From a virus: 64,000 nucleotides of DNA. The stretch covers positions 1 to 64,000 of IMG/VR virus record IMGVR_UViG_3300021425_004462; one strand, given 5' to 3'. The notes beneath the pieces are model-generated. The model made no database searches. It had not been told where the DNA came from and saw nothing but the letters and a program-made list of their open reading frames with translations. The position numbers and the translations under genes are program-made. Positions 14,758-62,129 of the stretch are shown one piece after another. Every line of letters begins with the position of its first letter. Within the stretch, counting starts at the first letter, position 1.

Positions 14758-15667
14758 TACATGTAAGATTTGTGGCGCAGAATTTACTTCCGAGAGAAGT
14801 TTACATGCCCATTTGAAAAGTCACAAAATTATGCTTGCTGAATATTATACAAAATATTATCCAAGATATAATTTATTAAATGGTGACCCTTTGCCTTTTA
14901 AAAAAAAAGATGAATATTTTTCTAAAGACTTTTCTACTCATAATCAATTATTACAGTGGTGCGAAAGAGAGTCGGATGATATTGTAAAGCCATATATTTT
15001 GGGGCTTCTAAAAAAAAGAATTCTGGAAAAAAAATTAACAATTGCACCTTCGTCCTTAGAGTTAAAATTACACGAATTGCCAACTATAGAAATTTATAAA
15101 AAACATTTTGGATCATATACGGCTGCATGCAAAGAGGCGGGAGTTAAACCTATGTATGGTTCTCCTCTGCCTGATATATGGAAAAATAAAATTGACAACA
15201 TAGAAATATTTATTGATACGCGTGAACAACAGCCTCTGGTATTCCCTAGGTCACAGTCCCTAAAGTTAGAGTTTGGCGATTATGCTGTAGGGCAAGATCA
15301 TTATGATTATACTTATGTAGACCGTAAAGGCGAGCAAGATTTTAAGTCAACATTAAGCAAAAATAATTTAGAAAGATTTAAGCAAGAACTACAAAGAACA
15401 AAAGAATTTGATAGTTATTTATTTATTGTCACAGAAAGCCCTGTTTCCCAGATAGAAAAAAATAATAGGCGAAGTGCACATAAATCAAATTTAAAATATA
15501 TATATCATAACATGAGGGTTCTTAATCATGAATTCGCAGGATATTGTCAGTTTATATTTACTAAAAACAGAGAGCATAGCCAGAAAATTATTCCTAAGCT
15601 ATTGGTGTTAGGGAGAAAACTTTGGAATGTAGATTTGCAGTATTACATAGATAAGGATATTGTATAA
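14747..15667 (+). CDS. C2H2 zinc finger + ERCC4-type nuclease
   Basis: A 306-residue protein. Residues 6-26 form a classical C2H2 finger (CKICGAEF, then HAHLKSH). Helical linkers follow, the second resembling homing-endonuclease DNA-reading modules (FGSYTAACKEAGV). The C-terminal half is an ERCC4-like nuclease: IFIDTREQQPLVFP, GDYAVGQ and VDRKGEQDF, matching GD...ERKxxxD with Asp in place of Glu. It probably cuts DNA at branched or specific sites. It lies between the terminase genes, overlapping the large subunit start by one base (TAATG). It may take part in packaging or be a resident homing nuclease. Confidence 0.75.
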   Translation: MSSNTCKICGAEFTSERSLHAHLKSHKIMLAEYYTKYYPRYNLLNGDPLPFKKKDEYFSKDFSTHNQLLQWCERESDDIVKPYILGLLKKRILEKKLTIAPSSLELKLHELPTIEIYKKHFGSYTAACKEAGVKPMYGSPLPDIWKNKIDNIEIFIDTREQQPLVFPRSQSLKLEFGDYAVGQDHYDYTYVDRKGEQDFKSTLSKNNLERFKQELQRTKEFDSYLFIVTESPVSQIEKNNRRSAHKSNLKYIYHNMRVLNHEFAGYCQFIFTKNREHSQKIIPKLLVLGRKLWNVDLQYYIDKDIV

Positions 15668-17538
15668 TGGCTTGGGAAACGGGAAAACAGTTATCTAGAA
15701 AAAGCGAAGAGGACTTTAATGAAAAGTTGCTGAAGATTGAAGGTTTTTTAGAAGAGAAGGAAGCTAAGCTTTTACTTTATCAATTTCTAAGGGAAAATAT
15801 TACATTTACTGCAGATTTAGTTAGCGGAGTCAAGCTCTTCCCTTTTCAGCATATGGCAATCAAAGCTATGTTTGAAACTGATTATTTTATGGGTGTATGG
15901 TCTCGAGGAATGAGTAAATCATTTACTACTGCAATATATGCTTATCTCGACGCAATATTAAATCAAGGTGTTGAGATTGGTATACTCTCTAAATCTTTTC
16001 GTCAAGCAAAAATGATTTTTAAGAAAATCGAAGATATTGCATCGAAGCCTGGCGCTACATATTTATCTCAATGCATAACTCATAAATCAAAAAGTAATGA
16101 TGAATGGTTGCTTGAAATTGGTTCTAGTCGCATACGAGCTTTGCCACTTGGTGATGGTGAAAAGCTGCGGGGCTTTCGTTTTCACAGAATCATTATCGAC
16201 GAGTTTGCTCTTATGCCTGAAAGAATTTATAATGAGGTTATTATACCTTTCCTTAGTGTTGTTGAAAATCCAACACAAAGAGAAGAGTTGTATAATTTAG
16301 AGACAGATTTGATAGATAAAGGAGAAATGACTGAAGATGAGAGACATATTTGGCCGAATAATAAATTGATCGCATTATCTTCTGCAAGCTATAAGTTTGA
16401 ATATATGTATAAAGCATACGAACAATTTGAAGAGCTTATTATGAAGGGAGGGGACAAGCATTCTGATGCGCATAGGATCATTATGCAATTCAGTTATGAT
16501 TGCGCTCCAAAACAGCTATATGATAAAAATTTGATAGAGCAAGCAAAGTCTACAATGAGTCAAAGTCAATTCGATAGAGAGTTTGGGTCTATATTTACGG
16601 ATGACAGTAGCGGATACTTTAAAACTTCTAAAATGGCGGCATGCACTTTGCAGGATGGAGAAAGGCCGAATATTGAAGTGTGCGGAGAAGTCGGAGAAAA
16701 GTATATATTAGCATTCGATCCTAGTTGGGCTGAAAGCGAAAGCAGCGATGATTTCGCTATGATGGTGTTAAAATTAAATGACGATAAAAAAATTGGAACT
16801 GTAGTCCATAGTTATGCATTATCTGGAACAAACTTAAAGCAGCATATATTTTATTTTCATTATTTACTAACTCATTTTAATATTGTATCTATTGTCGGAG
16901 ATTATAATGGAGGGGTTCAGTTTATTAATGCTTGTAATGAAAGTAGTTTATTTAAAAAGAATAAAATTAATATTGGATGCTTGAATACTAATTTTGATGA
17001 TATTGAACACTATCAACAAAAGCTTCTAGAAGGTAAAAGAGAATACAATCTTGAAACAAGGCACATTTGTTATTTAAGAAAACCAACAAGCCAATGGATA
17101 AGACTAGCTAACGAGTTACTTCAAGCTAATTTTGATCATAGAAGGATCTATTTTGCATCGCGCGCAATTGACGATTCATATAACGAACAAAGAAAAAAGA
17201 AAATACCAATACAAGACTTAAAATTTTTAAGAACCTCTCAGAGTTTAGAAAGGCAAACTAACGCTGCAAAAATGATTGATTTTGTAGAGCATCAATTTGA
17301 TATGATTAATTTAATTAAAGCTCAGTGCGCTTTAATTCAGATAACTACTTCAGCAGGCGGAACTCAAACATTCGATTTGCCTCCAAATTTAAAAAGGCAA
17401 ACTGGTCCAGAAAAAGCGAGAAAAGATTCTTATTCTGCGTTAGTCCTTGGAAACTGGATGATTAAGTTATATTATGATATGATGAATGTTAAAGTGGAAA
17501 ATGTAAACTACACCTTTACTCCCATGTTTATAAACTGA
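15667..17538 (+). CDS. terL: Terminase large subunit
   Basis: A 623-residue DNA-packaging motor. The ATPase domain has the phage-type Walker A variant SRGMSKSF (about residues 79-86) and Walker B HRIIIDEFALMP (about 174-185). The RNase H-like nuclease domain begins at ILAFDPSWAES (about 350) and continues with VGDYNGGVQF and the terminal SYSALVLGNW. The length and the T4-like two-domain order are standard. The start overlaps the ERCC4 gene stop. It would dock on the portal (52001-53986) and cut concatemeric DNA. Confidence 0.94.
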   Translation: MAWETGKQLSRKSEEDFNEKLLKIEGFLEEKEAKLLLYQFLRENITFTADLVSGVKLFPFQHMAIKAMFETDYFMGVWSRGMSKSFTTAIYAYLDAILNQGVEIGILSKSFRQAKMIFKKIEDIASKPGATYLSQCITHKSKSNDEWLLEIGSSRIRALPLGDGEKLRGFRFHRIIIDEFALMPERIYNEVIIPFLSVVENPTQREELYNLETDLIDKGEMTEDERHIWPNNKLIALSSASYKFEYMYKAYEQFEELIMKGGDKHSDAHRIIMQFSYDCAPKQLYDKNLIEQAKSTMSQSQFDREFGSIFTDDSSGYFKTSKMAACTLQDGERPNIEVCGEVGEKYILAFDPSWAESESSDDFAMMVLKLNDDKKIGTVVHSYALSGTNLKQHIFYFHYLLTHFNIVSIVGDYNGGVQFINACNESSLFKKNKINIGCLNTNFDDIEHYQQKLLEGKREYNLETRHICYLRKPTSQWIRLANELLQANFDHRRIYFASRAIDDSYNEQRKKKIPIQDLKFLRTSQSLERQTNAAKMIDFVEHQFDMINLIKAQCALIQITTSAGGTQTFDLPPNLKRQTGPEKARKDSYSALVLGNWMIKLYYDMMNVKVENVNYTFTPMFIN

Positions 17539-24991: not shown

Positions 24992-27550
24992 CTATTTAAC
25001 TTCAGACATTTTCATATATATCTTTTCGTCCATTATACTCAATGAATCTAGAAAAACAATATCTTCACCTTTTCTTCCGTATGCCACTATTATACTCTTT
25101 TTTGATGGAGTTTTATTCTTTGAATCAAAATATCTATCATAGTAATTACCTCTGCGGGAGTTTAAAAGCATAGCGTCATATTTACCATGTTCATCTGTAA
25201 TTGATAATTTCATATATTTATTTCCATTTCTAGATGTTCTTTTAATGCAGTCTTCAACAACTCCAATAAATTTACCTTTATCATCTGAATTCATGAGGTT
25301 TAAGTCTCTTGAGTCTTTTAACGACTCATAAGAGTCCATAAAACATGATTTTAATGAAGAGCTATGGCTATATCCTAGAAGCTCTGTTTCAAAATACCAA
25401 TTAGCAAATCCTTGATACATTTTATTTTTATCGTAAATCTCTTTATATAAATCGTATTTTTTCTTAAATGTTTTGAATCTAGATTCTTTCATTAAAGGTT
25501 TACCATCGTCTCCTACTAGATCTCCTTTTTTAGCGTCTGCTATACAGTTTAGAAGTTTATATTCATACTTTTCTCCAAGAGCGATAAAGTTCCGCTTTTC
25601 TCTATCTGTTAATAAATTAAATGCTTGGGCCTCTAAAACCATCAACGACCTGTTTTTACCTTTACTCTCTAAGGCTCCAGCTTGAATTAATGCGCTCAAT
25701 ATACCAATATTTAATCCAGCTTGCTTTGCCGCGAGAAAAATATCATATTTCGTTGGGGTTTCGCTTGAGCGAAAGTTTTTGAGGGAATGTAAAGACTTTT
25801 CGCTTACCCCTTTGATGCTATTTAATCCAAATCGTATATCTTTACCTTCAATTGAAAAATCCATACCAGATTTAGCTAAGTCTGGAGAAAGTAATTTTAT
25901 TCCAAAATGAGAAAGCTCTTGACAAACTTTAGCTATTTCCTCTTGTGGAGATGGCTCGTATTTAGTCATCTTGAGAAGAGATATAAAGAATTGCTGTGGA
26001 TAATTAAATTTTAAATAAGCTGTCCATGCGGATAAAGTTGCATAGGCTAGAGAGTGGGATTTATTAAAAGAGTAATTAGCGCTATCTTCTGCTACGCTCC
26101 ACAAGATGTGCGATATCTCTCTAGGTAAATCATTTTCCTCTACTTTGTCTTCAATCTTCTTTTTCCAAGCTGGCATTTGTTCTACTTTTTTCTTACCGAC
26201 AATTCTTCTTAATTGTTCCGCTTCATCAAGAGTAAATCCAACTTTAACTGCCATTTGCATCAATTGCTCTTGGTAAAGTGGGATTCCTCCTGTATAATCC
26301 AAAACATCACTAAAGAACTCGTGAATAACCTGCGCTTCTTCTGTTTCAGAATATGTAGCATAATTATCTAAAAATTCTAGAGCTCCAGGCCTACCAATCG
26401 CTACAACCGCACTAAGTTGCTCTAGGTCCCTTGGTTTAATCTTTTTGCAAACCCTATAGTTTGTATCGGATTCAAGCTGAAAAAGCCCGTGAGGCGTTCT
26501 GAGTGTCTGCAATGGCTTATATACATCTGAATCATTTAGATCTACAGTAGAAATGTCTATGTCTAGATTTTTGCAGACATCATAAATAACGCTCAAGGTT
26601 CTTAATCCTAAAATATCGAACTTAACCATTAATTCTGCAACCCAATTCATATCGTATCCTGTAACCAAAGCTCCGTCATTTGATTTTTGAATTGGACAAA
26701 TATCTGTGATTTTTTGAAAAGAAATTGCAATACCGCTAGGATGAACTCCCGTATTTTTGTTTAAACCTTCTAATTTAAGAGCGATCTCAAATACTTCTGG
26801 ATTGGCTGCTGCCCAATCTGCGAATTTTTCACTTTCTTCTATTGCAGAAGAAATTGGCATAACAACTCCAAACTTTTTGGGGATAGTGTCACTAACTTCA
26901 TTGACCTCTTGCTCAGAAAATTCTCCAACAATTTTTCCACACTCTTTCACGCAAAGCTTTCCACTTAAGGTATTTAGCGTTAATATTTTAGCTGTACGAG
27001 CGGGATGTTTTTTTTCAATATATTCTATAACTTCAGCTCTTCTTTCATAAGCTATGTCGTTATCTACATCAGCTAAAAGACTTCCATCTAAATAGATTTC
27101 TCCATCTTTTTCTATTTTTCTTGCCCTACTTTTTGAAACAAAACGCTCAAAGAAAAGGCTGTACTTGACCGGATCTACATTTGTAACCCCAATTAGATAC
27201 AAAACCAAAGAGCCTGCAGCAGACCCTCTTCCTGGACCTGTCGGTATATCATTTTCGTGACAATAGTTTATTATGTCCCAGTTTAATAAAATATAATCTA
27301 TAAATCCTAATTCATCTAATATCTTTAATTCAGATTTTGCTCTTTCAAAATATTCTTTTTTATTTTTTAGCTTATCTATTCCTCTGTCATATACTCCTTT
27401 GTGACATAATTTGCGTAGAAAGTCTAGGTTAGAAATGTCTTCTGATGCTTCGAGCATTTCATAGTATTTCTTTTCAATTTTAATTTCTGGTAATTTTACG
27501 CCAGGAGGCGCACAGTCTTGGTAGTCTGTAAATTGTTCTGTAAAACTCAT
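24992..27550 (-). CDS. dnaE: DNA polymerase III alpha-type catalytic subunit (C-family), PHP domain absent
   Basis: An 852-residue replicative polymerase of family C. It begins directly in the polymerase core: GPGRGSAAGS (about 105), YSLFFERFVS, catalytic ADVDND (D161, D163), the third Asp region VKFDILGL, GLFQLES, YQEQLMQMA and SFNKSHSLAYA. A helix-hairpin-helix/tau-binding-like part and an OB fold (FIGVVEDCIKRTSRNG) follow. The N-terminal PHP domain is missing and is encoded separately two genes upstream. I chose ATG 27550: it overlaps the exonuclease stop as TAATG and has GGGAG 12 bases upstream; an in-frame ATG at 27568 is also possible. Confidence 0.93.
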   Translation of the reverse strand: MSFTEQFTDYQDCAPPGVKLPEIKIEKKYYEMLEASEDISNLDFLRKLCHKGVYDRGIDKLKNKKEYFERAKSELKILDELGFIDYILLNWDIINYCHENDIPTGPGRGSAAGSLVLYLIGVTNVDPVKYSLFFERFVSKSRARKIEKDGEIYLDGSLLADVDNDIAYERRAEVIEYIEKKHPARTAKILTLNTLSGKLCVKECGKIVGEFSEQEVNEVSDTIPKKFGVVMPISSAIEESEKFADWAAANPEVFEIALKLEGLNKNTGVHPSGIAISFQKITDICPIQKSNDGALVTGYDMNWVAELMVKFDILGLRTLSVIYDVCKNLDIDISTVDLNDSDVYKPLQTLRTPHGLFQLESDTNYRVCKKIKPRDLEQLSAVVAIGRPGALEFLDNYATYSETEEAQVIHEFFSDVLDYTGGIPLYQEQLMQMAVKVGFTLDEAEQLRRIVGKKKVEQMPAWKKKIEDKVEENDLPREISHILWSVAEDSANYSFNKSHSLAYATLSAWTAYLKFNYPQQFFISLLKMTKYEPSPQEEIAKVCQELSHFGIKLLSPDLAKSGMDFSIEGKDIRFGLNSIKGVSEKSLHSLKNFRSSETPTKYDIFLAAKQAGLNIGILSALIQAGALESKGKNRSLMVLEAQAFNLLTDREKRNFIALGEKYEYKLLNCIADAKKGDLVGDDGKPLMKESRFKTFKKKYDLYKEIYDKNKMYQGFANWYFETELLGYSHSSSLKSCFMDSYESLKDSRDLNLMNSDDKGKFIGVVEDCIKRTSRNGNKYMKLSITDEHGKYDAMLLNSRRGNYYDRYFDSKNKTPSKKSIIVAYGRKGEDIVFLDSLSIMDEKIYMKMSEVK

Positions 27551-28194
27551 TATACTTCTATCTCCCATATCATTTTTTTGAATACTTCGTAGTTAACTCT
27601 AATGTCATATAATGCATCATGCAATTTTTTCTCATCAAAGTCAACATCAAAATCTTTGCAGCACTGCTTGAGGTTACAACTTAAACCTCTTTCAATCAAA
27701 TGGTTAAGTCGATATTGCCATGCTAAAAAATTATCATCTTTATCCAGCCTTATTCTCTTTTTAAGAGCTTTTGCAAGACATAAGGTGTCCACTAAATGCT
27801 CTGTATAGCTAAAGTCGGTTTCTGAGTTTTCATCAATAAGTTTGCGATGAACATTATGCATGTAAACATCAAATCCTAGTAAGTTGTGGCCGACTTTAAG
27901 ATAGGAGTCGTCATACAAATATTTCTCGAAGTGGTCTAAGGCAGCTTTGGGGCATGTGGCCTTTTTCTTATATTTTGCCTCAGTAAAGCCAGTGATCTTT
28001 GCTGCGTCAGGTGATACATTTAATTCATCCCATTTGAGCCAGTAATCTTTTTGCTCTACAATTTTATTATTTTCTATTACAAGAAATGCTAATTGCCATG
28101 GTTTATTATTTGATACAAGATTTAAATTACATGTTTCATAATCAAACAGTAAATACTTTTTATTCTTTTGAAATCTAAGCAGTGATTCTTTCAT
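27550..28194 (-). CDS. DnaQ-like 3'-5' proofreading exonuclease
   Basis: A 214-residue DEDDh exonuclease: ExoI motif LLFDYETCNL (D18, E20), ExoII GHNLLGFDVYMH, ExoIII HDALYDIRVNY (His and Asp). It removes mismatched 3' ends for the polymerase encoded just downstream, with which its stop overlaps (TAATG). I chose ATG 28194 because a strong Shine-Dalgarno sequence, GGAAGG, precedes it; starts up to 28236 lie inside the upstream gene. Overlap with the PHP gene is 20 bases. Gene order PHP, Exo, Pol mirrors the domain order of PolC. Confidence 0.9.
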   Translation of the reverse strand: MKESLLRFQKNKKYLLFDYETCNLNLVSNNKPWQLAFLVIENNKIVEQKDYWLKWDELNVSPDAAKITGFTEAKYKKKATCPKAALDHFEKYLYDDSYLKVGHNLLGFDVYMHNVHRKLIDENSETDFSYTEHLVDTLCLAKALKKRIRLDKDDNFLAWQYRLNHLIERGLSCNLKQCCKDFDVDFDEKKLHDALYDIRVNYEVFKKMIWEIEV

Positions 28195-31806: not shown

Positions 31807-32820
31807 ATGAATGATAAAACAGGAGAATTACTAACAGAAAATATAGCGGGGGTAAATAGAATTTTACCACACAAACATAAATATGCATGGGATCTATTTT
31901 TAAAAAGTTGTGCAAATAACTGGATGCCTACTGAAATCAGTATGCAAAATGACATTAAACAATGGAAAAATGATGAAATTACTGAAGACGAAAAATTACT
32001 CGTTAAACGCTGCCTTGGGTTCTTTGCGGGATCTGAGTCTTTGGTTGGTAATAATCTGCTGCTTTCGGCTTTTAGATTTATTACTGATGCTGAATGCCGT
32101 CAGTATATACTTCGTCAAGCTTTTGAGGAAAGCCTTCATAACCTTACGGTAGTTTATATTTGTGATAGCCTAGATCTTAATATAGAAGAAGTTTTCGCTG
32201 CTTATGAAACAATTCCAAGTATTAAAGCTAAAGATGACTTTTTAATGGGCATTACTAATGATATTAGTCGTCAAGATTTTGACGCTCATACTATAGAGGG
32301 CAAGCAAGAAATTTTACGCAATTTTTTGACTTATTGGATTGTTTGCGAAGGAACATTCTTTTTTAGCGGATTTGCAATGTTATTGGCTTTAGGTAGACAA
32401 AACAAACTTCAAGGAATATCTGACCAAATTAAATATACTCTAAGGGACGAAAGTTCTCATATTGCGTTCGGAACTTATTTAATTAACACCTTGATTGATC
32501 AAAATCCAGAAATATGGACAAAAGAAATTCAAAATGAATTTGTGGAGCATATGAAAAAAGCTGTAGAGCTTGAAATAGCTTATGCTCACGATGTTCTTCC
32601 TACAGGAATACTTGGGCTAAATGCAGACATGTTTGTTGACTATATGCACTACATTGGAAATCGTAGATTAGAGGGTATTGGCTTAGACTATCGCTTTCCT
32701 AGCGATAAAAATCCTTTCCCTTGGCTTAGTGAGGTTGTTGATGTTCAAGCAATGGGAAATTTCTTTGAAAGAAGAGTTAGAGAGTATCAACAAAGCGGAT
32801 CTTTAGAAGACGATTTCTAA
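31807..32820 (+). CDS. nrdB: Ribonucleotide reductase beta subunit, class Ic-like
   Basis: A 337-residue radical-generating subunit. The metal ligands are E77 (GSESLVGNN), E108 and H111 (FEESLHNLTV), then WIVCEGTFFFSGF and RDESSHIAFG. The position four residues after H111, which holds the radical Tyr in classical R2, is Val115. The surrounding sequence closely follows the Chlamydia trachomatis R2 as I remember it (AESLVGNN, LRQAFEE, LYICESL, ILRDE), which is the Mn/Fe class Ic type with Phe there. So a Tyr-free metal cofactor is expected. Convergent overlap of 18 bases with the polyketide synthase gene. Confidence 0.92.
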   Translation: MNDKTGELLTENIAGVNRILPHKHKYAWDLFLKSCANNWMPTEISMQNDIKQWKNDEITEDEKLLVKRCLGFFAGSESLVGNNLLLSAFRFITDAECRQYILRQAFEESLHNLTVVYICDSLDLNIEEVFAAYETIPSIKAKDDFLMGITNDISRQDFDAHTIEGKQEILRNFLTYWIVCEGTFFFSGFAMLLALGRQNKLQGISDQIKYTLRDESSHIAFGTYLINTLIDQNPEIWTKEIQNEFVEHMKKAVELEIAYAHDVLPTGILGLNADMFVDYMHYIGNRRLEGIGLDYRFPSDKNPFPWLSEVVDVQAMGNFFERRVREYQQSGSLEDDF

Positions 32821-33885
32821 TAAAGAAGATTCAACTGTTACTCCTGGACCAAAAGTTGCAGAAAAAATATTTTTCTCACCGTTTGAGCGATTTTCCAAAA
32901 TCTCTTTTAGTACAAATAAAATAGTGGGGCTACTCATATTTCCGTATTCTTTAAGAATATTTCTAGAATGTTTTAAATCTGCATCAGGTTTAAATTTTTG
33001 AAACGAATCAAGTATTGCCCTTCCCCCAGGGTGAATTGCCCAACAATCTATAGAGTTCTCTATTTCCAATATATGCTCGAGAGCTTCATTTATATTTTCG
33101 GATATAAAACTTGGAAGATCTGAATTTAAGGTTAAATCAAAACCATTGTCTCCGATTTTCCATGCTAAATTTTTTCCATCATCATTTATGACATGAGAAT
33201 TGAATGATTTAACTTCTAGAAATGGTTGTGTTTTTGTTAATTTTTCATCAGAAGAAACTATGCAGGCCGCACACCCATCAGAGAAAATAGAGTTTCCTAT
33301 AATATAGTTGGGATCATCTGTTAGTTTCATGTGAAGCGTACACATCTCAATGCAAACAACTAAAACCTTAGCATCTTTATTGCTCTTACAAAATTCTGAT
33401 GCGGTTTTTAATGCGGGAAATGCAGCTTGACATCCCATAAATCCAATATTTACCCTTTCTATGTTTTTATTTAAATTAAATTCATTTATTATCTCTATAT
33501 CTAAACCTGGATTATAAAAACCTGTACATGAAACGGTTATAAGGTGGGTAATTTCTTGTAGGTTTATTTTGTTTGAAATTTTTGATATCGCCTTGAAGGC
33601 GAGGGGTCCGCTATTTTTTTTATATATATTATTTCTTTCTGAAGTAGAAGGGTTATGCAAAGTCTTGTTTTCATTTCTATGAAAAAGTTCTGTTTCCGTA
33701 GTTGAAAGCCTTAAGTCTTTTAATACGGAATATCTATTTTTAATACCAGATTTTTTGATTGCTTGTTTAATTAAAAGCTTGTATCTTCTGTCATCTTGAA
33801 ATTCATTGATGAAATTGTAAATTTCTTCTTGACTACCTTTATGTTCAGGGTTTGAGGTTTCTATGCAGTTTATATAAATTCCCAT
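32803..33885 (-). CDS. Type III polyketide synthase (chalcone synthase-like)
   Basis: A 360-residue homodimer-type thiolase-fold enzyme. The catalytic triad is complete: Cys152 in GFMGCQAAFPAL, His in CWAIHPGGRAILD (about 291), Asn in EYGNMSSPTILFVL (about 324), plus the terminal GPG loop (FGPGVTVE). Such enzymes condense acyl-CoA with malonyl-CoA to make alkylresorcinols, pyrones or similar lipids. It lies 37 bases downstream of the DUF1501 gene on the same strand, and no separate promoter is seen, so they are probably co-transcribed. It is almost certainly host-derived cargo. Confidence 0.92.
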   Translation of the reverse strand: MGIYINCIETSNPEHKGSQEEIYNFINEFQDDRRYKLLIKQAIKKSGIKNRYSVLKDLRLSTTETELFHRNENKTLHNPSTSERNNIYKKNSGPLAFKAISKISNKINLQEITHLITVSCTGFYNPGLDIEIINEFNLNKNIERVNIGFMGCQAAFPALKTASEFCKSNKDAKVLVVCIEMCTLHMKLTDDPNYIIGNSIFSDGCAACIVSSDEKLTKTQPFLEVKSFNSHVINDDGKNLAWKIGDNGFDLTLNSDLPSFISENINEALEHILEIENSIDCWAIHPGGRAILDSFQKFKPDADLKHSRNILKEYGNMSSPTILFVLKEILENRSNGEKNIFSATFGPGVTVESSLLEIVF

Positions 33886-33922: not shown

Positions 33923-35215
33923 TTACCCTAAAATGTCTAATAGAGGCTCTCCCTTGTGTGCTATAGTAAAAGGTCTTCCTGAGGGAGAGTATTGGTAGTC
34001 ATTTAATGGTAAACCCAAAGTGTGTGCAATTGTCGCATTTAAGTCTTCTGGTTTAATAGGTTTGCCTTCTGTAGGAGTTCGACCCGTTTTGTCGGTCTCT
34101 CCATAAGTCATTCCACCTTTAATTCCTCCTCCTGCTAAAAAAGCTGTAAAGCAATAAGGCCAGTGATCTCTTCCGTCTCTTCCGTTAATATTTGGAGTTC
34201 TTCCGAATTCAGAAGTTAAAACTACCAAGGTATCGGAAAGCATACCTCTTCGATTTAAATCAATTAGCAGACCACTTAATGCGTGATCAATATCGGTGCA
34301 ATTTGCTGCTACTCTGTCAAAGTTATTATCGTGCGTATCCCATCCTCCCCTTGTTACTTCAACATATCTTACGCCATGCTCTACAAGCCTTCTTGCTAAT
34401 AAGCATCCTTTTGCAAAATTAGTTTGCCCATAAAGATTACTTGTTGACTCAGGCTCTTTTGTGATATCAAAAGCGTTTAAATCATTACTGTTCATTAATT
34501 TAATTGCATCTTTATATAAGTCAGAATAAGCTCTTACTTTTTTCTGTGGAAACTGAGTAGAGAAATTTTCATTTAAAGCTTCTGCAATAGATATTCTACT
34601 TTGGAAATGTTCATGATCCAAGTATGAGGCCATTTTACTATTAGCTAATCCTGAGCTTGGATTATTAATTGGCAATGCTCCATATTTAGATTCTAAAAAA
34701 CCAGCGCCGCCTCCGCCGCCACCTATTTTAACATTGCTGGGTATTGTTCTGTTGATTGAGCCAGAAAGTTTAGATACCCAGCTACCAAATGTAGGGTGAA
34801 CAATTGTACCTCTTTTAAGATAGCTTGTGTGCATTAAATAACTGGCTTGCTCATGCGCTCCTTGGCTTGTGTTCATTGTTTTAATTATTGCTGCATGATG
34901 CATAAGCTCGGCAGTTTTTGGCAAGTTTTCAGAAAGAATTACTCCATCTGCGCTTGTTGGTATAGATTTGGTGGGACCTTGAATATCTGGAGCGTCTGGC
35001 TTTGGTCCAAATGTATCAAGGTGAGACATAGCTCCTCCCATATTTAAATAAATTACGTGCCTTGCTGTAGGAACTCTTGCTCCTGGATTTAGCGCACTAA
35101 CACTATTATGTATATATGCTCCTGCCATTGGCATAAGTCCTACCCCAAAACATGCTTTTGCGGCATGAGCTATAAATTCTCTTCTTCCTAGTTCATCTAT
35201 TGTATTAAAGTTCAT
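33923..35215 (-). CDS. DUF1501 family protein (PVC-type)
   Basis: A 430-residue protein of the DUF1501 family (sulfatase/alkaline phosphatase-like fold). It has a Tat-like signal GRREFIAHAAKACFGVG (about residues 10-26), then RHVIYLNMGGAMSHLDTFGPK, QGAHEQASYLMHTSY, GGWDTHDNNFDRV, VVLTSEFGRTP and GRDHWPYCFTAFLAGGG, the metal-site-like segments of the family. In Planctomycetota and Verrucomicrobiota such genes usually pair with DUF1549/DUF1553 genes, as here (35631-37901), and are thought to act in the periplasm. The enzymatic role is unknown. Cargo from a PVC host. Confidence 0.9.
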   Translation of the reverse strand: MNFNTIDELGRREFIAHAAKACFGVGLMPMAGAYIHNSVSALNPGARVPTARHVIYLNMGGAMSHLDTFGPKPDAPDIQGPTKSIPTSADGVILSENLPKTAELMHHAAIIKTMNTSQGAHEQASYLMHTSYLKRGTIVHPTFGSWVSKLSGSINRTIPSNVKIGGGGGGAGFLESKYGALPINNPSSGLANSKMASYLDHEHFQSRISIAEALNENFSTQFPQKKVRAYSDLYKDAIKLMNSNDLNAFDITKEPESTSNLYGQTNFAKGCLLARRLVEHGVRYVEVTRGGWDTHDNNFDRVAANCTDIDHALSGLLIDLNRRGMLSDTLVVLTSEFGRTPNINGRDGRDHWPYCFTAFLAGGGIKGGMTYGETDKTGRTPTEGKPIKPEDLNATIAHTLGLPLNDYQYSPSGRPFTIAHKGEPLLDILG

Positions 35216-35230
35216 AATAGATTATTACAC
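35216..35230 (-). promoter_or_regulatory. Class B promoter-like motif before DUF1501
   Basis: Minus strand gtgTAATAAtctattATG, hexamer ending six bases before the ATG at 35215. A TTGACT lies 15 bp upstream of the hexamer, so it could also work weakly as class A. Confidence 0.65.
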
Positions 35231-35234
35231 AATT

Positions 35235-35263
35235 TTGAGAAAAGTCAACACAAAGTGTATGAT
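35235..35263 (+). promoter_or_regulatory. Class A promoter, hybrid with GTG element
   Basis: TTGAGA (35235-35240), 17-bp spacer, TATGAT (35258-35263) preceded by GTG; the GTG start at 35269 begins five bases later. It overlaps the divergent DUF1501 promoter region. Confidence 0.6.
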
Positions 35264-35268
35264 ATATT

Positions 35269-35655
35269 GTGCAGTTTTTATTACTTATCTTCTTAACTTG
35301 CAGTATTTTATGCGCTAAATTACAGATTAAAGATTATTTGGATGATTGCGATTGGTGCAAGAATCAGCTTAAAAGCACTCAACCTTTAGATATTGGTGAA
35401 TGGAGTATGAGATGCCAAAAAAAGCCGAAACCAATATGGTTTAATTATAGAAATATAGGCAGAGTCTATGGAACTTATAAAGAAAAAACTTCTATGTGTT
35501 GGATTTATTCTGAGAAATTAGGCTGGATATATAACACTCCTCAATACAAAGATTATATTTATACTCACAAACTTGGATGGATATATATAAAAGATGGTAA
35601 GGTTTATGTTTTTAAAAAGAAAAAGTGGGATTATTTTACAAATATAAATTCATGA
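35269..35655 (+). CDS. Small secreted Trp/Tyr-repeat protein
   Basis: A 128-residue protein with GTG start and a signal peptide (LLLIFLTCSILCA, residues 3-15). The mature part has repeated Trp/Tyr units: MCWIYSEKLGWIYNT, YIYTHKLGWIYIKDG, then VFKKKKWDYF, like the C-terminal domain of the M64 peptidase at 9131-10489. I recall such GW-Y repeats from verrucomicrobial surface proteins. It sits on the opposite strand between the DUF1501 and DUF1549/1553 genes and overlaps the latter by 25 bases at its 3' end. Confidence 0.6.
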   Translation: MQFLLLIFLTCSILCAKLQIKDYLDDCDWCKNQLKSTQPLDIGEWSMRCQKKPKPIWFNYRNIGRVYGTYKEKTSMCWIYSEKLGWIYNTPQYKDYIYTHKLGWIYIKDGKVYVFKKKKWDYFTNINS

Positions 35656-37901
35656 GTGTTAATTAATGTCCATATTATTTCTTTGTATGCATCTTTAGTA
35701 TTTTTTATATTATCTGTAAAAATTTTAATTTCTTTAGTAGAAGGTTCTCTATTTAATATATATTTATATCCTATTGTAATTTTATCACTCAATGACTTTT
35801 GAGACTCTATTGCTTTTATAATTTCAAAGTTTTTATTTTTTAATAATCTAGTTTCAACAAATCCATTCAGGAGATTTAATACTTGTGTCGCAGAGGCACT
35901 TTTATTTGCGTTTTCTATCTGCTCCCTATCTGAACCACCAAACTCACGAATAAGGTGCCCTATGGGCGCAGGAGAGGGTAGTTCTGAGGCTCTAACTGAA
36001 TTGCGGTCTTTCACAAAGTTTTGCTTATACTCTTTTTTCTTATTTTCCATTTGAGATTTGAATTTATCAACACAAGACTCACAACAAAAAGCTACAGTTT
36101 CTCCGTTTTCATTTAGGGCTAATAATGTTGGGTCAATTGCTCTACCCGGTTTGATTGGACAGTCTGTGTTTATTGGCTTACTGAATTTAGACTTGCTTTG
36201 AGTTTTAGGTCTTTCAGTTTTGTTTATTTTTGCCATCAATTCTGAAAACAATTCTTCTCCTGTCATTTCTGAAAAATTTTGAAAATTTTGATATCCTTTT
36301 GTGTTTTGCTCTAATTTTCTAGAATCAACATTATTTACTGTCAAATTAACTAAAGAGTCCCAGATTTGCTCTCCACTCATTCTTTCAAGTATAGGTCCTT
36401 GATAGAAATATGGTACTGCATTTTTAGATTGATTTTCGCTGTCTGGGCCAGCTACAACCCATTTCACTTCTACAGGCATAGACTGATCTTTGTTGTCTTT
36501 AGGGATAACGTCTCTAACCACAGACTGACGCTGAAAAGTTTTTGTATTATATAATATTCTAAGAAATTCCTTAAGGTCATAATTTAATGCAACCATAACT
36601 TTTTCGAGATGAAGTTGAAGTTTTGGGTCCGTAGCTAATGTGTCGTCAAACATATTGTCTATGGGCTCAATTAATGCTAGTCCAAAAGCTTCTTTCCAGA
36701 GTCGATTGACAATGACTGCTGTAAATCTTGGGTTTGAATCTGAAGCTAGCCAGTTTGCATAAATTTCTCTAGATCCTGATTGAGGAGCTTTTGTTTTAAT
36801 ATCTATCTCTTCTCCAAAAATAGTTTTACCCATTAACGATTGGTTTGGTTTTGCGTTGTCGTATTGATAATCTTTCGGAAGATTTATCTTTCCATTACCC
36901 ATGCTGGCTAGTCCGGTTTGAAGAATATCTTGTATATCTCTCACGCCGTTTTGTAATTGCCTTGATTTTTGCGGCTCATCATTATTTTCTAACTTGCGTC
37001 TTTCATCTCTCGCTAATCTGTTTAATACGGTTAAATTTTCTGGACTTTTGGTTCTTAAGTTAGTTGAGCCACTCGTAAAAGCTGCCATTTCATAAAATTG
37101 CTTTTGAGTCCATCGATCAAATGGATGATCGTGGCACTGGGCACATTCTAAGCTAGTACCTAAAAATACTCTAACTGTATTTGCCATACTGTCTAATGGC
37201 ATGTTTACATCACGAGCAAAATAACTAACTCCTTCATTACCTTTGATCCATAATGGGCCAGAAGAAGAAAGCATCTCTCTCACCCATTCATCATAAGGCT
37301 TGTTGTTAGAGATGAAATCTTTGACATAATTTTTATATGGAACACCAGATATTCTATTATTTAATCTGTCTTTAATTCTTAATATATCTGCCCAGAAATT
37401 AAACCAATGACTTACATATCCTTCACTACCTAATAATTGATCAATTAGCTGCGATCTTTTGTTTTTATCTTTTCTATTTAAAAAAGTATCTACTTCTGTT
37501 AAAGATGGAGTTCTGCCTATAACCTTTAAGTATGATCTGCGTAAAAATGTAGCGTCGTCAACTTCTTTATTTGGTCGAAGATTATATCCTCTAAGTTTTG
37601 TTTCGATCAAGCTATCAATATAATTGGCATGAGTTTTTAAATCTTTCTCTGATAGCGGTTTTTTGAATTTAGGCAAAGCTTCGTGACTGGGCGGAAAGTT
37701 ATTTTTAATATAAGCTTGATTATCTTCTGTTAAAGAATCTATCGCTATTCTGAATAACTGTAAATCACTAGATCTTTTTATTAAAGCGTGGGTTGCATTC
37801 GCCTCAAGAATATCTCCTTTAAGATCTTTTCCGTTATTAAAATAAAGCGTATCGCCGAAGCAATAAATTGATGATAAGAATAATAAAATTAGTTTTTTCA
37901 T
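35631..37901 (-). CDS. DUF1549/DUF1553 (PSCyt2/PSD1) protein with metal-binding insert
   Basis: A 756-residue protein. Signal peptide at 1-16 (KKLILLFLSSIYCFG); I chose the ATG at 37901 for this reason, the longer frame running through a terminator. DUF1549 core: FLRRSYLKVIGRTP, WFNFWADILRIKD and the signature FLGTSLECAQCHDHPFDRW (about 247-265). DUF1553 follows: SREIYANWLASDSNPRFTAV, VNRLWKEAFG. An inserted TRASH/YHS-like metal site lies near residue 615-650 (DCPIKPGRAIDP, VAFCCESCVDKF). Such genes accompany DUF1501 genes in Planctomycetota and Verrucomicrobiota; the function is unknown but periplasmic. Confidence 0.88.
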   Translation of the reverse strand: MKKLILLFLSSIYCFGDTLYFNNGKDLKGDILEANATHALIKRSSDLQLFRIAIDSLTEDNQAYIKNNFPPSHEALPKFKKPLSEKDLKTHANYIDSLIETKLRGYNLRPNKEVDDATFLRRSYLKVIGRTPSLTEVDTFLNRKDKNKRSQLIDQLLGSEGYVSHWFNFWADILRIKDRLNNRISGVPYKNYVKDFISNNKPYDEWVREMLSSSGPLWIKGNEGVSYFARDVNMPLDSMANTVRVFLGTSLECAQCHDHPFDRWTQKQFYEMAAFTSGSTNLRTKSPENLTVLNRLARDERRKLENNDEPQKSRQLQNGVRDIQDILQTGLASMGNGKINLPKDYQYDNAKPNQSLMGKTIFGEEIDIKTKAPQSGSREIYANWLASDSNPRFTAVIVNRLWKEAFGLALIEPIDNMFDDTLATDPKLQLHLEKVMVALNYDLKEFLRILYNTKTFQRQSVVRDVIPKDNKDQSMPVEVKWVVAGPDSENQSKNAVPYFYQGPILERMSGEQIWDSLVNLTVNNVDSRKLEQNTKGYQNFQNFSEMTGEELFSELMAKINKTERPKTQSKSKFSKPINTDCPIKPGRAIDPTLLALNENGETVAFCCESCVDKFKSQMENKKKEYKQNFVKDRNSVRASELPSPAPIGHLIREFGGSDREQIENANKSASATQVLNLLNGFVETRLLKNKNFEIIKAIESQKSLSDKITIGYKYILNREPSTKEIKIFTDNIKNTKDAYKEIIWTLINTHEFIFVK

Positions 37902-37924
37902 TGTAGGATTATAATATTTATAAA

Positions 37925-37936
37925 CTATAATTACAC
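37925..37936 (-). promoter_or_regulatory. Class B motif abutting a terminator, before DUF1549/1553
   Basis: Minus strand gtgTAATTATAG begins directly after the T-tract of the terminator. The ATG at 37901 is farther off, and a second AT-rich TATAAATA lies between, so which element is used is uncertain. Confidence 0.45.
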
Positions 37937-37962
37937 AAAAAAGCCACCCATTTCTGGGTGGC
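37937..37962 (-). terminator. Rho-independent terminator of the outer-membrane barrel gene
   Basis: Eight-base-pair perfect stem gccaccca / tgggtggc with a four-base loop; on the minus strand six T follow. It lies 24 bases after the barrel gene stop. Confidence 0.9.
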
Positions 37963-37986: not shown

Positions 37987-38637
37987 TTAAAAAGAAAAAC
38001 TAAGTCCTGCAGACAATAAATCTTCTCCGTCCATAGATTCAGAGTCGACTCTAGCATATCCTACAGAAGCTTCGATAGAATCAGTTAGATCTTTTGAAAG
38101 AATCGCTCCGACTTGATAGTAATCGTTGTTTTGAAGATCATACCTATCTGCATTACCAACTGATCCGCCCACAGTTAGGTTTGCGAATTGCAAATTAAAA
38201 CCATGAGATACCCCTCCTTCGAATACATAGTTATTATCACTAGTATCTCTTTGAATTAATACATAAGGCGACAATGCAGTATTCAAGCTCAATCTCACAA
38301 CTGCATCAAGTTGGCTTTTACCGTTTACAGCTTCTTCATGCTCAAAGCCTACATAAGCTTTGAGTAGATCTGTAAATTTAGAAGAAGCTCCTACAGAAAA
38401 AATATAAACACTTTGTCCATCAGAGAGTTCATCGAAAGAAGACGCCGAACCCTCAAGGGTTAAGCTTTCAATTTCTTGACTATAACCCACCGAAGCAGAA
38501 AGATTTTCTTCTGTCAATAAGGAGCCTTTGTTGAATGTATCAGTTCCGTATTCAAGAGATACAGAACCTGATCCAGCATAAGCCGCGTTAATAATAAGCG
38601 CCGTAATGGCAGTAAGGGTAATTAATAATTTTTTCAT
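37987..38637 (-). CDS. Outer-membrane beta-barrel protein
   Basis: A 216-residue protein with a Sec signal peptide (residues 1-21, ending AAYA). The mature part consists of alternating amphipathic strands separated by Asp/Ser-rich turns, at a length suiting an 8-10-strand barrel, and ends in LSAGLSFSF, whose terminal Phe and alternating pattern form a BAM insertion signal. It is probably placed in the host outer membrane, where it might block superinfection, alter uptake or replace a host porin. It has its own class A promoter and terminator, so it is expressed as a single gene. Confidence 0.75.
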   Translation of the reverse strand: MKKLLITLTAITALIINAAYAGSGSVSLEYGTDTFNKGSLLTEENLSASVGYSQEIESLTLEGSASSFDELSDGQSVYIFSVGASSKFTDLLKAYVGFEHEEAVNGKSQLDAVVRLSLNTALSPYVLIQRDTSDNNYVFEGGVSHGFNLQFANLTVGGSVGNADRYDLQNNDYYQVGAILSKDLTDSIEASVGYARVDSESMDGEDLLSAGLSFSF

Positions 38638-38649
38638 AATTAAAGTAGG

Positions 38650-38677
38650 ATTATATATTATATATCAAAAAAGTCAA
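38650..38677 (-). promoter_or_regulatory. Class A promoter of the outer-membrane barrel gene
   Basis: Minus strand TTGACT (38677-38672), 16-bp spacer, TATAAT (38655-38650), with the ATG 12 bases further at 38637. The -35 overlaps the 3' end of the HSP20 gene. Confidence 0.78.
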
Positions 38678-39126
38678 TCAATTTTTATTTTATTTAGAGA
38701 TTTTCCTTTTCTGCGAGGTATTGTGATTTCTAATATACCATTATTCATAGAGGCAGATATTTTATCAGAATCTAATTCTGATGTGAGCTTGAATGTATTC
38801 TTGAATCCATCTTTAAAGATTTGTTGCTGAATGTACTCTCCTTCAATAGATTCTTCTTTTGGGGTTTTATAAGAAACAGAAAGCTTTCCGTTGTCGCATT
38901 CGATGTTGATATCTTCCTTGGGTATTCCTGGAGTTAGTAGTTCTATTATGGTTTCTTTTTCTCGCGCTATAACATTAGCTTGAACTGGGTAATCATCTAG
39001 CTCATTGAAATAATTTGTTTCTTCAGGTAGTGAGAAATTAAGGAATAAATCATTTAATAGATTATTCATTGTTGTTTTTGTTTTACTTGAATCTGGTCTG
39101 TAATTTTTTTTGAAGTAATATGACAT
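38674..39126 (-). CDS. Small heat-shock protein (HSP20/alpha-crystallin)
   Basis: A 150-residue chaperone. The variable N-terminus is followed by the alpha-crystallin domain (about residues 47-135): VQANVIAREKETIIELLTPG, EDINIECDNGKLSVSY, and the consensus MNNGILEITIPRRKG near the C-terminus. It holds unfolding proteins without ATP. It is common in large marine phages of the T4 type. It lies 37 bases upstream of the outer-membrane protein gene, which has its own promoter. An AT-rich region precedes the ATG, with no clear class A or B site. Confidence 0.93.
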   Translation of the reverse strand: MSYYFKKNYRPDSSKTKTTMNNLLNDLFLNFSLPEETNYFNELDDYPVQANVIAREKETIIELLTPGIPKEDINIECDNGKLSVSYKTPKEESIEGEYIQQQIFKDGFKNTFKLTSELDSDKISASMNNGILEITIPRRKGKSLNKIKID

Positions 39127-41211: not shown

Positions 41212-41226
41212 ATTTATTTATTACAC
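41212..41226 (-). promoter_or_regulatory. Class B promoter-like motif built on the fcl stop
   Basis: Minus strand gtgTAATAAataaatATG: hexamer six bases before the ATG at 41211. The GTG is the last codon of fcl and TAA its stop. Confidence 0.65.
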
Positions 41227-42177
41227 AAATTTTTCTTTATTTTCTATGTACCATGAGTATGTTTTTTTGATTCCGTCTCTGAGTGATGTTGCAGGCTTGT
41301 ATCCCATTTTTAATAATTTATTATTGTCCATTTTTTTGCGATAAGTTCCATCTGGTTTAGATGAGTCGAATAATATATCTCCTTTATAGTTAACTATATC
41401 TTGTATTATATTAGTTAATTCAAGAATAGAAACTTCATCTTCAGAGCCGCAATTAATATGAGAAATTTTTTGATCATATATGTCTTTAGCCTCGACATTT
41501 TCTAAGCAATATTTTAATGCATCAGCTAAATCATCGACGTATAAAAATTCACGCAAGGGCTTTCCTGTGCCCCATACTTCGATATTCTTTTCGTTATTTT
41601 CTTTTGCTTCGTGAACTTTTCTGATGAGAGCTGGTAGCACATGAGAGCTTTTTAAATCAAAGTTATCTCTAGGGCCATACATATTGCAAGGCATAACTGA
41701 ATAAAAATTATTTTTATATTGATCATAGAAGCTTTCGCATAATTTGATTGCTGCTATTTTTGCAATTGCATATGGTTCATTGGTTTTCTCTAACACATCG
41801 GTTAGAAGGCTATCTTCTGTGATTGGTATTTTTGCATCTCTAGGGTATATGCAAGAGCTGCCGAGATTTATAAGTTTGTGAACATTATACACATGGGAAG
41901 CGTGAATTAAATTACTTGCTATCTGCAGGTTTTGATATATAAAATCTGCACGGTAGATATTGTTTGCAAGAATTCCTCCGACTTTTGCTGCACAAATTAT
42001 GACTACATCAGGCCTTTCTTGCCCAAAGAATTTATTAACTTCTGCTTGATTGGTTAGATCTAATTCCTTTCGGGTTTTGGTTAATAAATTTTTATAACTA
42101 TTTTTAGTAAGATTATCTAGAACCGCAGACCCTACCATTCCGTTGTGCCCGGCAATGAAGATTTTTTTATTATTCAT
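41221..42177 (-). CDS. fcl: GDP-L-fucose synthase
   Basis: A 318-residue short-chain-dehydrogenase enzyme (epimerase/reductase) that converts GDP-4-keto-6-deoxymannose to GDP-L-fucose with NADPH. Rossmann motif GHNGMVGSAV (residues ~9-18), catalytic Ser in NLGSSCIYP, YAIAK (Tyr-x3-Lys), then NMYGPRDNFD and the GKPLREFLYVDDLADA segment typical of the family. It completes the pathway begun by gmd, with which it overlaps by four bases (ATGA). The fucose donor probably feeds the glycosyltransferases at 57-63 kb. Confidence 0.95.
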   Translation of the reverse strand: MNNKKIFIAGHNGMVGSAVLDNLTKNSYKNLLTKTRKELDLTNQAEVNKFFGQERPDVVIICAAKVGGILANNIYRADFIYQNLQIASNLIHASHVYNVHKLINLGSSCIYPRDAKIPITEDSLLTDVLEKTNEPYAIAKIAAIKLCESFYDQYKNNFYSVMPCNMYGPRDNFDLKSSHVLPALIRKVHEAKENNEKNIEVWGTGKPLREFLYVDDLADALKYCLENVEAKDIYDQKISHINCGSEDEVSILELTNIIQDIVNYKGDILFDSSKPDGTYRKKMDNNKLLKMGYKPATSLRDGIKKTYSWYIENKEKFV

Positions 42178-43205
42178 CGACTTAATTGCATGTAGTCATT
42201 TTGATACATTTTTTTAACTAAACCTTTAAAATCAGTCTTCCTGGTCCAACCCATTTCTTTTTCTGCTAAACTGCAGTCTCCGCATAATTCATGGACTTCT
42301 GCAGGTCGATAGAATTTAGGGTTTACCTCAAAAATTAATTCACCATCTAAGGTATAGTATTTTTCATTATCCTCAGATCCAGAGGATTCAAATTGAATTC
42401 CTGCACATTTTAAAGTTTCATTTAAAAACTCTCTAACAGTGTGCATTTCGCCGCTACCTAGAACGTAATTTTTAGGTTTTTCTTGATTTAACATGAGCCA
42501 AACGCCTTCCATGAAATCTTCTGCGTCACTCCAATCTCTTTTAGCTTCTAGGTTTCCAAGTTTTAAAACAGGTATTTGCTTTTTATCTTCTATAGCTAAT
42601 TTTATTCTAGCTACTGTATGGCTAATTTTTCTTGTTACAAAATCCAATCCTCTCCTTGACCCTTCATGGTTGAACAGCCAACCTTGAACTGCATACAGGT
42701 CATAGGATTCTCTATAGACCCTGACAATATGTCTAGCTGCGCATTTTGCAGCTCCATATGGACTTTGAGGTCTAAGAGGGTGAGTTTCGTCTTGAGGGCT
42801 GCAAATTACATCTCCAAATTCCTCTGAAGATCCCGCATTGTAAAACTTACAACTTGGCGCAAACCTACGTATTGATTCTAAGATATGTAAAACTGCATCA
42901 GCGTCTGTATCCCATGTTTGAATTGGGTAGTCCCAACTTCCCGCTACAAATGACTGTGCAGCAAAATTTATAAAAAAATCTGGGTGAATATCGATAATTA
43001 CATCTCTAATACTGTGTGCATCATTTAAATCCATATTAATTAATTCAAATCTAGATTGATTTTCTAAGTGCAAAATGTTCTCGTGGTTTTTTACGCTCAA
43101 ACGGCGAGCTGTGCCGTATATTTTATAATCTGTATTTTGTAAAAGATAATCAACCATATGGCTGCCATCTTGGCCCGTTACTCCTGTTACTATAATTTTT
43201 TTCAT
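42174..43205 (-). CDS. gmd: GDP-mannose 4,6-dehydratase
   Basis: A 343-residue NADP-dependent dehydratase giving GDP-4-keto-6-deoxy-D-mannose. Motifs: GVTGQDGSHMVDYLL, NFAAQSFVAGSWDYP, NAGSSEEFGD, SPYGAAKCAA (Tyr-x3-Lys), NHEGSRRGLDFVTRKI and YRPAEVHELCGD, in the normal order and at near-normal length. It is coupled by ATGA overlaps to the Nudix gene upstream and fcl downstream, forming a GDP-fucose module. Comparable gmd-fcl pairs exist in large cyanophages. Confidence 0.95.
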   Translation of the reverse strand: MKKIIVTGVTGQDGSHMVDYLLQNTDYKIYGTARRLSVKNHENILHLENQSRFELINMDLNDAHSIRDVIIDIHPDFFINFAAQSFVAGSWDYPIQTWDTDADAVLHILESIRRFAPSCKFYNAGSSEEFGDVICSPQDETHPLRPQSPYGAAKCAARHIVRVYRESYDLYAVQGWLFNHEGSRRGLDFVTRKISHTVARIKLAIEDKKQIPVLKLGNLEAKRDWSDAEDFMEGVWLMLNQEKPKNYVLGSGEMHTVREFLNETLKCAGIQFESSGSEDNEKYYTLDGELIFEVNPKFYRPAEVHELCGDCSLAEKEMGWTRKTDFKGLVKKMYQNDYMQLSR

Positions 43206-61030: not shown

Positions 61031-62129
61031 TTATTAATTTACTATATATATTTATATTTTTATATTCAAACGGACTAAATTGACTTAGGTGGGATCGAGC
61101 TTGCTGTGTATATTCACTTAAAGTTTTTTGATGATTTAAGATTGCATTATATAATTGATTGGATCCCATTTTGATGTCGTGTTTGCTATAATAATATCCT
61201 ATATCACATAGACTGGGGCAATTATGGATTAGGGGTAAGCCCATATATAATTGCTCGAAATTCGCATAATTGAATTCATTATCATTCTGGTGGCTAATAA
61301 CTGTACTACCAAACTTACTTAATGCATCGAGTGACCCCCATCTGTTATTAAAAAAACAGAAATTTTTCTTGCTTAAGATATTTAGTCTTTTTACGAAATT
61401 TTCAAAATATTTTCCAGTCCTGATTTTTTCTGCGCAAAAAGTATTGATAGCTCCTAAAGTGCCGGGCCTTTCGGTTTCAAGTCTTTCGCAAATCATTAAG
61501 GGGACAAAGCATGTTTTTATTGTATTTAAGTTTGGTTCGAAAATGCAGATTTTATTAACATAGTCAGGCTTAAAGAATGGATTTAAGTTTTTTTTATTTA
61601 GATCTTTAATTTTATCTTGAACAAAAGATGGTTCCCATATCATGGGAGTTACTATAACATCATCCATCCCGTAGTATGTTTTTATGTATTCTATACCAGA
61701 GGAGTGATGTGGAAGGATCCATATTTGATCTATATACTTATTGGTATCTTTGGGATTAATTTGTATATCTTGATTTTTATATCTTTCGTCAAATAAAGTA
61801 TTATATGTATCTATGTATAATTTATGACCAAAATGAGCTATGATAATTTTTAATTTAGGATTACGATCCTTTAATTCTTTATATATTTTTGCGGGGATAT
61901 CGTATCCCGCGATAATTAGAATGTCTAGTTTTTCGTTTTTATCGATAATTAAATCTTGTAGTAGCATACCCTTGTGCTTAAAATGCATTTTATTTTTGGG
62001 TATATCTTTAGTAATATAATAGCATTCATGACCTATTCTTTTGAATAAATCATAAAGGAAGACAATATTTTGCTGCATTCCATTTGCCCAGAATGCAATG
62101 GACATATCGAGGGTAATTCCTATTTTCAT
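61008..62129 (-). CDS. DUF2827-like glycosyltransferase, copy 2
   Basis: A 373-residue protein of the DUF2827 type: KIGITLDMSIAFWANGMQQN at the N-terminus, NKICIFEPNLNTIKTCFVPL in the middle, and YANFEQLYMGLPLIHNCP near the C-terminus, with the GT-B-like two-lobe layout. It is a paralog of the neighbouring gene at 62126-63202, coupled by an ATGA overlap. Probably a sugar transferase in the same glycan pathway. Confidence 0.8.
   Translation of the reverse strand: MKIGITLDMSIAFWANGMQQNIVFLYDLFKRIGHECYYITKDIPKNKMHFKHKGMLLQDLIIDKNEKLDILIIAGYDIPAKIYKELKDRNPKLKIIIAHFGHKLYIDTYNTLFDERYKNQDIQINPKDTNKYIDQIWILPHHSSGIEYIKTYYGMDDVIVTPMIWEPSFVQDKIKDLNKKNLNPFFKPDYVNKICIFEPNLNTIKTCFVPLMICERLETERPGTLGAINTFCAEKIRTGKYFENFVKRLNILSKKNFCFFNNRWGSLDALSKFGSTVISHQNDNEFNYANFEQLYMGLPLIHNCPSLCDIGYYYSKHDIKMGSNQLYNAILNHQKTLSEYTQQARSHLSQFSPFEYKNINIYSKLINEIKSNK

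Follow-up and report, generated by a model that had tools for sequence, protein, structure and literature searches.

How does a tailed phage come to carry genes for two exported protein families typical of the Planctomycetes-Verrucomicrobia-Chlamydiae (PVC) bacteria, and what role might they have there? The window considered here is a stretch of 64,000 nucleotides (bases 1-64000 of the 122,059-bp virus record IMGVR_UViG_3300021425_004462), in which a gene for a DUF1501 protein and one for a DUF1549/DUF1553 (PSCyt2-PSD1) protein form a module among phage genes, including those for the terminase large subunit (TerL), DNA polymerase, primase, a DnaB-like helicase, a UvsX-like recombinase and ribonucleotide reductase (RNR). 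Phage-carried host genes are known as a kind, but the sources searched describe neither the DUF1501 family nor this host group nor an exported haem-motif module in phages. The module genes are intact and under strong purifying selection in phages, and their transfer, both between host and phage and from phage to phage, has happened repeatedly.

Are the genes complete? The DUF1501 protein matches PF07394 over all 390 domain positions (1-390) with 366.6 bits, against a curated cut-off of 27. In the DUF1549/DUF1553 protein both domains are above cut-off and in order (PF07583, 155.6 bits; PF07587, 90.7 bits); its length of 756 aa is counted from an internal ATG, the longest open reading frame extending to position 38057. 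The first-pass annotation, made from the sequence alone, described both families as complete, with export signals kept and a third secreted protein gene between them, and on all three points it is borne out, with chance excluded. DUF1501 has the substrate motif of the twin-arginine translocation (Tat) pathway (RR-x-F ahead of a hydrophobic stretch, here RREFI), from which export is predicted, and the twin arginines R11-R12 are identical in 20 of 20 aligned copies. The DUF1549/DUF1553 protein has a hydrophobic, Sec-like N-terminus, a haem-c motif, CAQCH, at residues 253-257 and one TRASH/YHS-like Cys insert. C253, C256 and H257 are invariant in 14 aligned viral copies, all of which read CAQCH or CAMCH; the protein is thus a putative c-type cytochrome, as judged from the CxxCH motif. 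Four related phages (L003, L002, L007 and L009) have the small signal-bearing reading frame at this site between the two genes, with 55-89% conservation, and a family search with it matched no family.

Is the module a peculiarity of one record? Protein-derived patterns, run over virus records, found 34 viral loci for DUF1501 and 23 for DUF1549, on contigs of up to 206 kb. In more than 20 independent contigs both genes lie between phage genes, their neighbours being phage DNA polymerase, Clp ATPase, RNR, primase, and gmd/fcl or DUF5824 genes; an assembly chimera, the first objection raised in the first-pass annotation, is thereby rejected. A prophage boundary is likewise rejected: the module is flanked by phage genes left and right, and none of 10 large lineage records has an integrase (PF00589). 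A survey was made of 49 contigs longer than 40 kb, picked by a related DNA polymerase only and blind to the module genes. DUF1501 is present in 30 of these, and PSCyt2 is above cut-off in 21, every one of which also has DUF1501. The two families occur together in 21 of the 30 carriers, but the pair is not obligatory, as DUF1501 occurs without DUF1549 in the other 9, about a third.

The second objection, decay of the genes in related phages, is also rejected. All 51 family matches above cut-off in the survey have stop-free reading frames. Ratios of nonsynonymous to synonymous substitution (dN/dS, Nei-Gojobori method) in comparisons with the window are 0.02-0.03 for DUF1501 and 0.04-0.06 for DUF1549, many of the dS values being saturated; for the unsaturated pair of the window and its closest relative, L046, dS is 0.42 and 0.35 and dN/dS 0.024 and 0.044, respectively. 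More distant DUF1501 sequences (34-44% identity) are found on further virus records, two of which (224 kb and 85 kb) have strong TerL matches. In one related phage a second, divergent DUF1501 (35%) follows the first, with two unassigned neighbours, at least one of them with a secretion-like N-terminus (L053:13331-17640). Among 50,697 annotated phage records (INPHARED) neither the DUF1501 nor the DUF1549 protein has a match. As the first-pass annotation supposed, no phage role for DUF1501 or DUF1549/DUF1553 is described in the literature searched, where the sole phage mention is a weak CDD match of a 61-aa protein (PMC5418858).

Where did the genes originate? The closest cellular DUF1501 sequences are those of marine Opitutales (Verrucomicrobiota), at 73-82% identity, and most of the remaining PVC copies lie at 30-52%. 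In the family of one such host genome, L064, exactly one ortholog of this kind (63-82%) is present in 36 of 42 genomes, although the 14 host genomes examined have from 6 to 58 DUF1501 genes each. The host order is DUF1549/1553, DUF1501 and PSCyt1 (with 2-3 CxxCH motifs), with sufS close by in most loci. This three-gene locus has relatives in the 'DUF1501 module' described for PVC bacteria (PMC4452313) and in the PSCyt genes (PMC5615132). The phages carry its first two genes, with order, direction, domains and CxxCH motif unchanged. They differ from it in lacking PSCyt1, for which a search of 25 viral records gave no match although it does detect the host copies, and in a shorter DUF1549 with one or no TRASH/YHS-like insert, where two is the number in most of the sister host clade.

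Gene trees, proposed in the first-pass annotation as a check, place viral clades in between Opitutales orthologs, which points to a host origin. Host clade L064/L266 is the sister group of the viral clade with the window (99/96), host L288 that of viruses L320/L322 (100/100), and viruses L309/L337/L314 group with hosts L067/L068 (100/99, wider group). Changes between virus and host, counted on starred tree branches and hence minimum numbers, are at least 6 in the extended DUF1501 tree, at least 4 in another tree and at least 2 in the DUF1549 tree. Direction from host to phage is inferred, since the family is broad in PVC bacteria. The cassette also moves from phage to phage, its identities running counter to those of the DNA polymerases: phages with a polymerase only 63% identical to that of the window have DUF1501 at 91% and DUF1549 at 87-88% (contig 3300033273_000833, for example, at 63%, 91% and 88%), whereas those with a polymerase at 82-86% have DUF1501 at only 71-79%. 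Third-position GC of the viral copies is 0.24-0.30, the phage level, compared with 0.39 in hosts. The source is one specific, single-copy, family-core host ortholog and not the two families in general, which refines the first-pass annotation. The phages very probably infect marine Opitutales, and a host family is thereby predicted for a widespread lineage of large marine phages. MB11C04 is a candidate for that family from the literature (PMC8857213), but this is not claimed here.

Expression signals also set the viral copies apart. The motif GTGTAWWA has 28 copies in the genome and lies on the sense strand within 60 bp upstream of 16 of 109 genes, DUF1501 included, against 0.75 expected; the antisense control gives 5, and AT-rich intergenic sequence somewhat inflates the contrast. 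The 'class B' promoters of the first-pass annotation are in keeping with this, the DUF1549 promoter of the window being of the looser GTGTAATTA form. Within the window clade, most viral copies of DUF1501 and DUF1549 have a GTGTA-type motif upstream, which host copies almost always lack; the viral copies thus carry putative phage-type promoters.

What might the module do? Prevalence, integrity, selection and trees uphold the earlier claim that the genes are not accidental cargo. Use during infection, the other half of that claim, is very probable, as we infer from repeated acquisition and from intact genes under strong selection. Cyanophage psbA/psbD cassettes are core host genes carried by phages, and they maintain a host machine during infection. 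The module resembles them in being a core host gene set in phages, with repeated exchange between host and phage and among phages, strong conservation and a likely part in the upkeep of a host machine; it differs in its non-photosynthetic Verrucomicrobiota host, in exported proteins without known biochemistry and in a partner cytochrome that is not carried. To the proposition that the two genes are a psbA-like, host-derived auxiliary cassette of large marine tailed phages, which renews a host-core periplasmic module in infection, we give about an even chance. DUF1501 would be exported via Tat during infection and DUF1549/1553 via Sec, with haem c attached; in the periplasm both would associate with a PSCyt1 partner made by the host, and, by the logic of psbA/psbD, a core periplasmic hydrolase or electron-transfer function of the envelope would be sustained once host gene expression stops. 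DUF1501 appears to be the key piece, because 9 of the 30 carriers have it without DUF1549.

Several points weigh against this proposition. PSCyt1 is not found in the phages and DUF1549 is missing in some, so that a complete working complex is conjectural; DUF1501 was not seen in 19 of the 49 lineage contigs, although fragments cannot show absence. Haem attachment and export are read from motifs, and the predicted model of DUF1549 (predicted local distance difference test, pLDDT, of 49) is too poor for use. The function of these families in any organism is stated as unknown (PMC5615132, PMC4452313). A further step, that DUF1501 and DUF1549/1553 are a core, labile machine of envelope energy or biogenesis in Verrucomicrobiota that several phage lineages must renew to complete infection, is offered only tentatively. 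If true, it would be a non-photosynthetic counterpart of cyanophage psbA and would reveal what one of the largest uncharacterised gene families of PVC bacteria does. The DUF1501 and PSCyt/PSD proteins have many copies per PVC genome and no known function; the repeated choice by phages of one single-copy ortholog marks that ortholog as important and yields a small, testable gene pair.

Could the exported DUF1501 act instead on the surface of the infected cell? It might remodel an envelope glycan, for example by taking off or transferring a phosphate- or sulfate-type group, and so block superinfection or aid release, with DUF1549 as helper. The Tat motif and a hydrolase-like predicted fold favour this: the predicted DUF1501 model (pLDDT 68.5) has Foldseek matches to sulfatases (E=2e-6, prob 1.0, TM 0.39), and LtaS and YejM, of the same superfamily, are also among the matches. 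An outer-membrane-like gene adjoins the module, sugar-nucleotide genes (gmd, fcl-like) are present in the same phages, and some phages keep DUF1501 alone. Yet surface-exclusion genes usually diversify, whereas here a single-copy core ortholog of the host is used with very low dN/dS; a partner with a cytochrome motif would not be needed, and no defence family was matched. Surface remodelling is therefore unlikely, if still worth keeping in view.

A role in catabolism, the module fuelling the infection by helping to oxidise sugars (sulfated or methyl-pentose glycans), is quite improbable. In freshwater Verrucomicrobia the PSCyt genes are linked to carbohydrate-binding modules and sulfatases, and carbohydrate metabolism has been suggested for the proteins, with their function stated as unknown (PMC5615132); genes for a sulfatase and for a protein like the formylglycine-generating enzyme also lie near one host locus. 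The phage-type copy, however, lies next to sufS as part of the core gene set of the family, and not in a variable glycan-use locus, and the formylglycine activation motif (C/S-x-P/A-x-R) is absent from the DUF1501 of the window and from all DUF1501 copies above 60% identity. A formylglycine (type I) sulfatase is thus rejected, and DUF1501 should not be called a sulfatase, because the CxPxR motif is missing (and the model has a TM of about 0.4 at its pLDDT of 68.5). A PDB sequence search with the DUF1501 and DUF1549/DUF1553 proteins gave no real relative, and DUF1501 is without any characterisation (PMC4452313).

A virion, assembly or counter-defence role unrelated to the host function has little to commend it: the GTGTA-type promoter is shared with very large, presumed late reading frames (e.g. 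103617-110039 of the record), but the export signals, the near-host sequence and the lack of PADLOC or PHROG matches speak against it, and a defence system is rejected on the PADLOC result. Accidental host cargo or a chimera, to which the PVC character of the families and the 19 contigs without DUF1501 might lend some colour, is refuted for the lineage by the recurrence amid phage genes, the stop-free frames, the low dN/dS and the repeated acquisition.

The features of the locus are collected in Table 1.

Table 1. The module and surrounding phage genes, with positions in the window
Feature	Position	Strand	Remarks
Terminase large subunit	15667-17538		
DNA polymerase	24992-27568		
Phage nrdB	31807..32820	+	PF00268, phrog_86; left flank of module, same neighbour in relatives
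Type III polyketide synthase (chalcone synthase-like)	32803..33885	-	PF02797/PF00195, E about 1e-22; 38 nt downstream of DUF1501
DUF1501 protein, 430 aa	33923..35215	-	PF07394, E=2.3e-109; predicted Tat signal; alkaline-phosphatase/sulfatase-like predicted fold
DUF1501 promoter region (putative)	35216..35268	-	TTGACT-N16-AATAAT and GTGTAATAA about 15 nt ahead of ATG; divergent from small ORF
Small, putatively secreted protein, 128 aa	35269..35655	+	GTG start (start uncertain); between DUF1501 and DUF1549/1553, opposite strand
DUF1549/DUF1553 (PSCyt2-PSD1) protein, 756 aa	35631..37901	-	PF07583, E=2.2e-45; PF07587, E=1.3e-25
DUF1549/1553 upstream region	37902..37962	-	Terminator-like hairpin (37943-37962), then putative GTGTAATTA-type promoter
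Outer-membrane beta-barrel-like protein	37987..38637	-	PF24653 Phage_OMP, E=3.8e-4, under curated cut-off; upstream of module
Phage Hsp20	38674..39126	-	PF00011, phrog_432; right flank of module

The beta-barrel-like neighbour is conserved in the lineage but fast evolving (28-88% identity among relatives). On the other side lies a gene that the first-pass annotation missed, for a type III polyketide synthase (PKS), which matches PKS18 (E=4e-44) with the catalytic Cys, His and Asn positions retained. Does it belong to the cassette? In L046, nrdB comes about 50 nt after DUF1501 with no PKS between, so the PKS represents an insertion in the window phage. It is absent from relatives and has no match in any other viral contig searched, and in the host family a weak homolog (31%) is found in 1 of 42 genomes only. 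As it is unique to the window phage and absent from its closest relatives, membership in the cassette is rejected. The only other phage record with a match in the INPHARED collection is Streptomyces phage ZL12, whose type III PKS is distant (24% identity); the collection gave no match to DUF1501 or DUF1549.

The stretches 41221-43205 and 57150-63202 of the window and 72586-84357 of the record hold genes for GDP-mannose dehydratase (gmd) and an NAD-dependent epimerase (fcl-like), together with long runs of reading frames that are glycosyltransferase-like by eye; these suggest a phage that makes its own glycan.

Several related phages (L034:9619-9981, L026:9617-9984, L025:6207-6570, L029:9588-9984, L044:9463-9896 and L325:4546-4979) have a full-length transfer-messenger RNA (tmRNA) gene (RF00023, 102-131 bits), which ends up about 7-73 nt upstream of either DUF1501 or the DUF1549-DUF1501 pair. 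Of 17 other large virus records with DUF1501 that were tested, 14 have a tmRNA above cut-off, but the record of the window has none above it. Phage tmRNA is known from marine phages (PMC9004378); next to the cassette, it may mark a capture site. One of these phages also carries a manA RNA motif (RF01745, 77 bits; L044:20788-20989).

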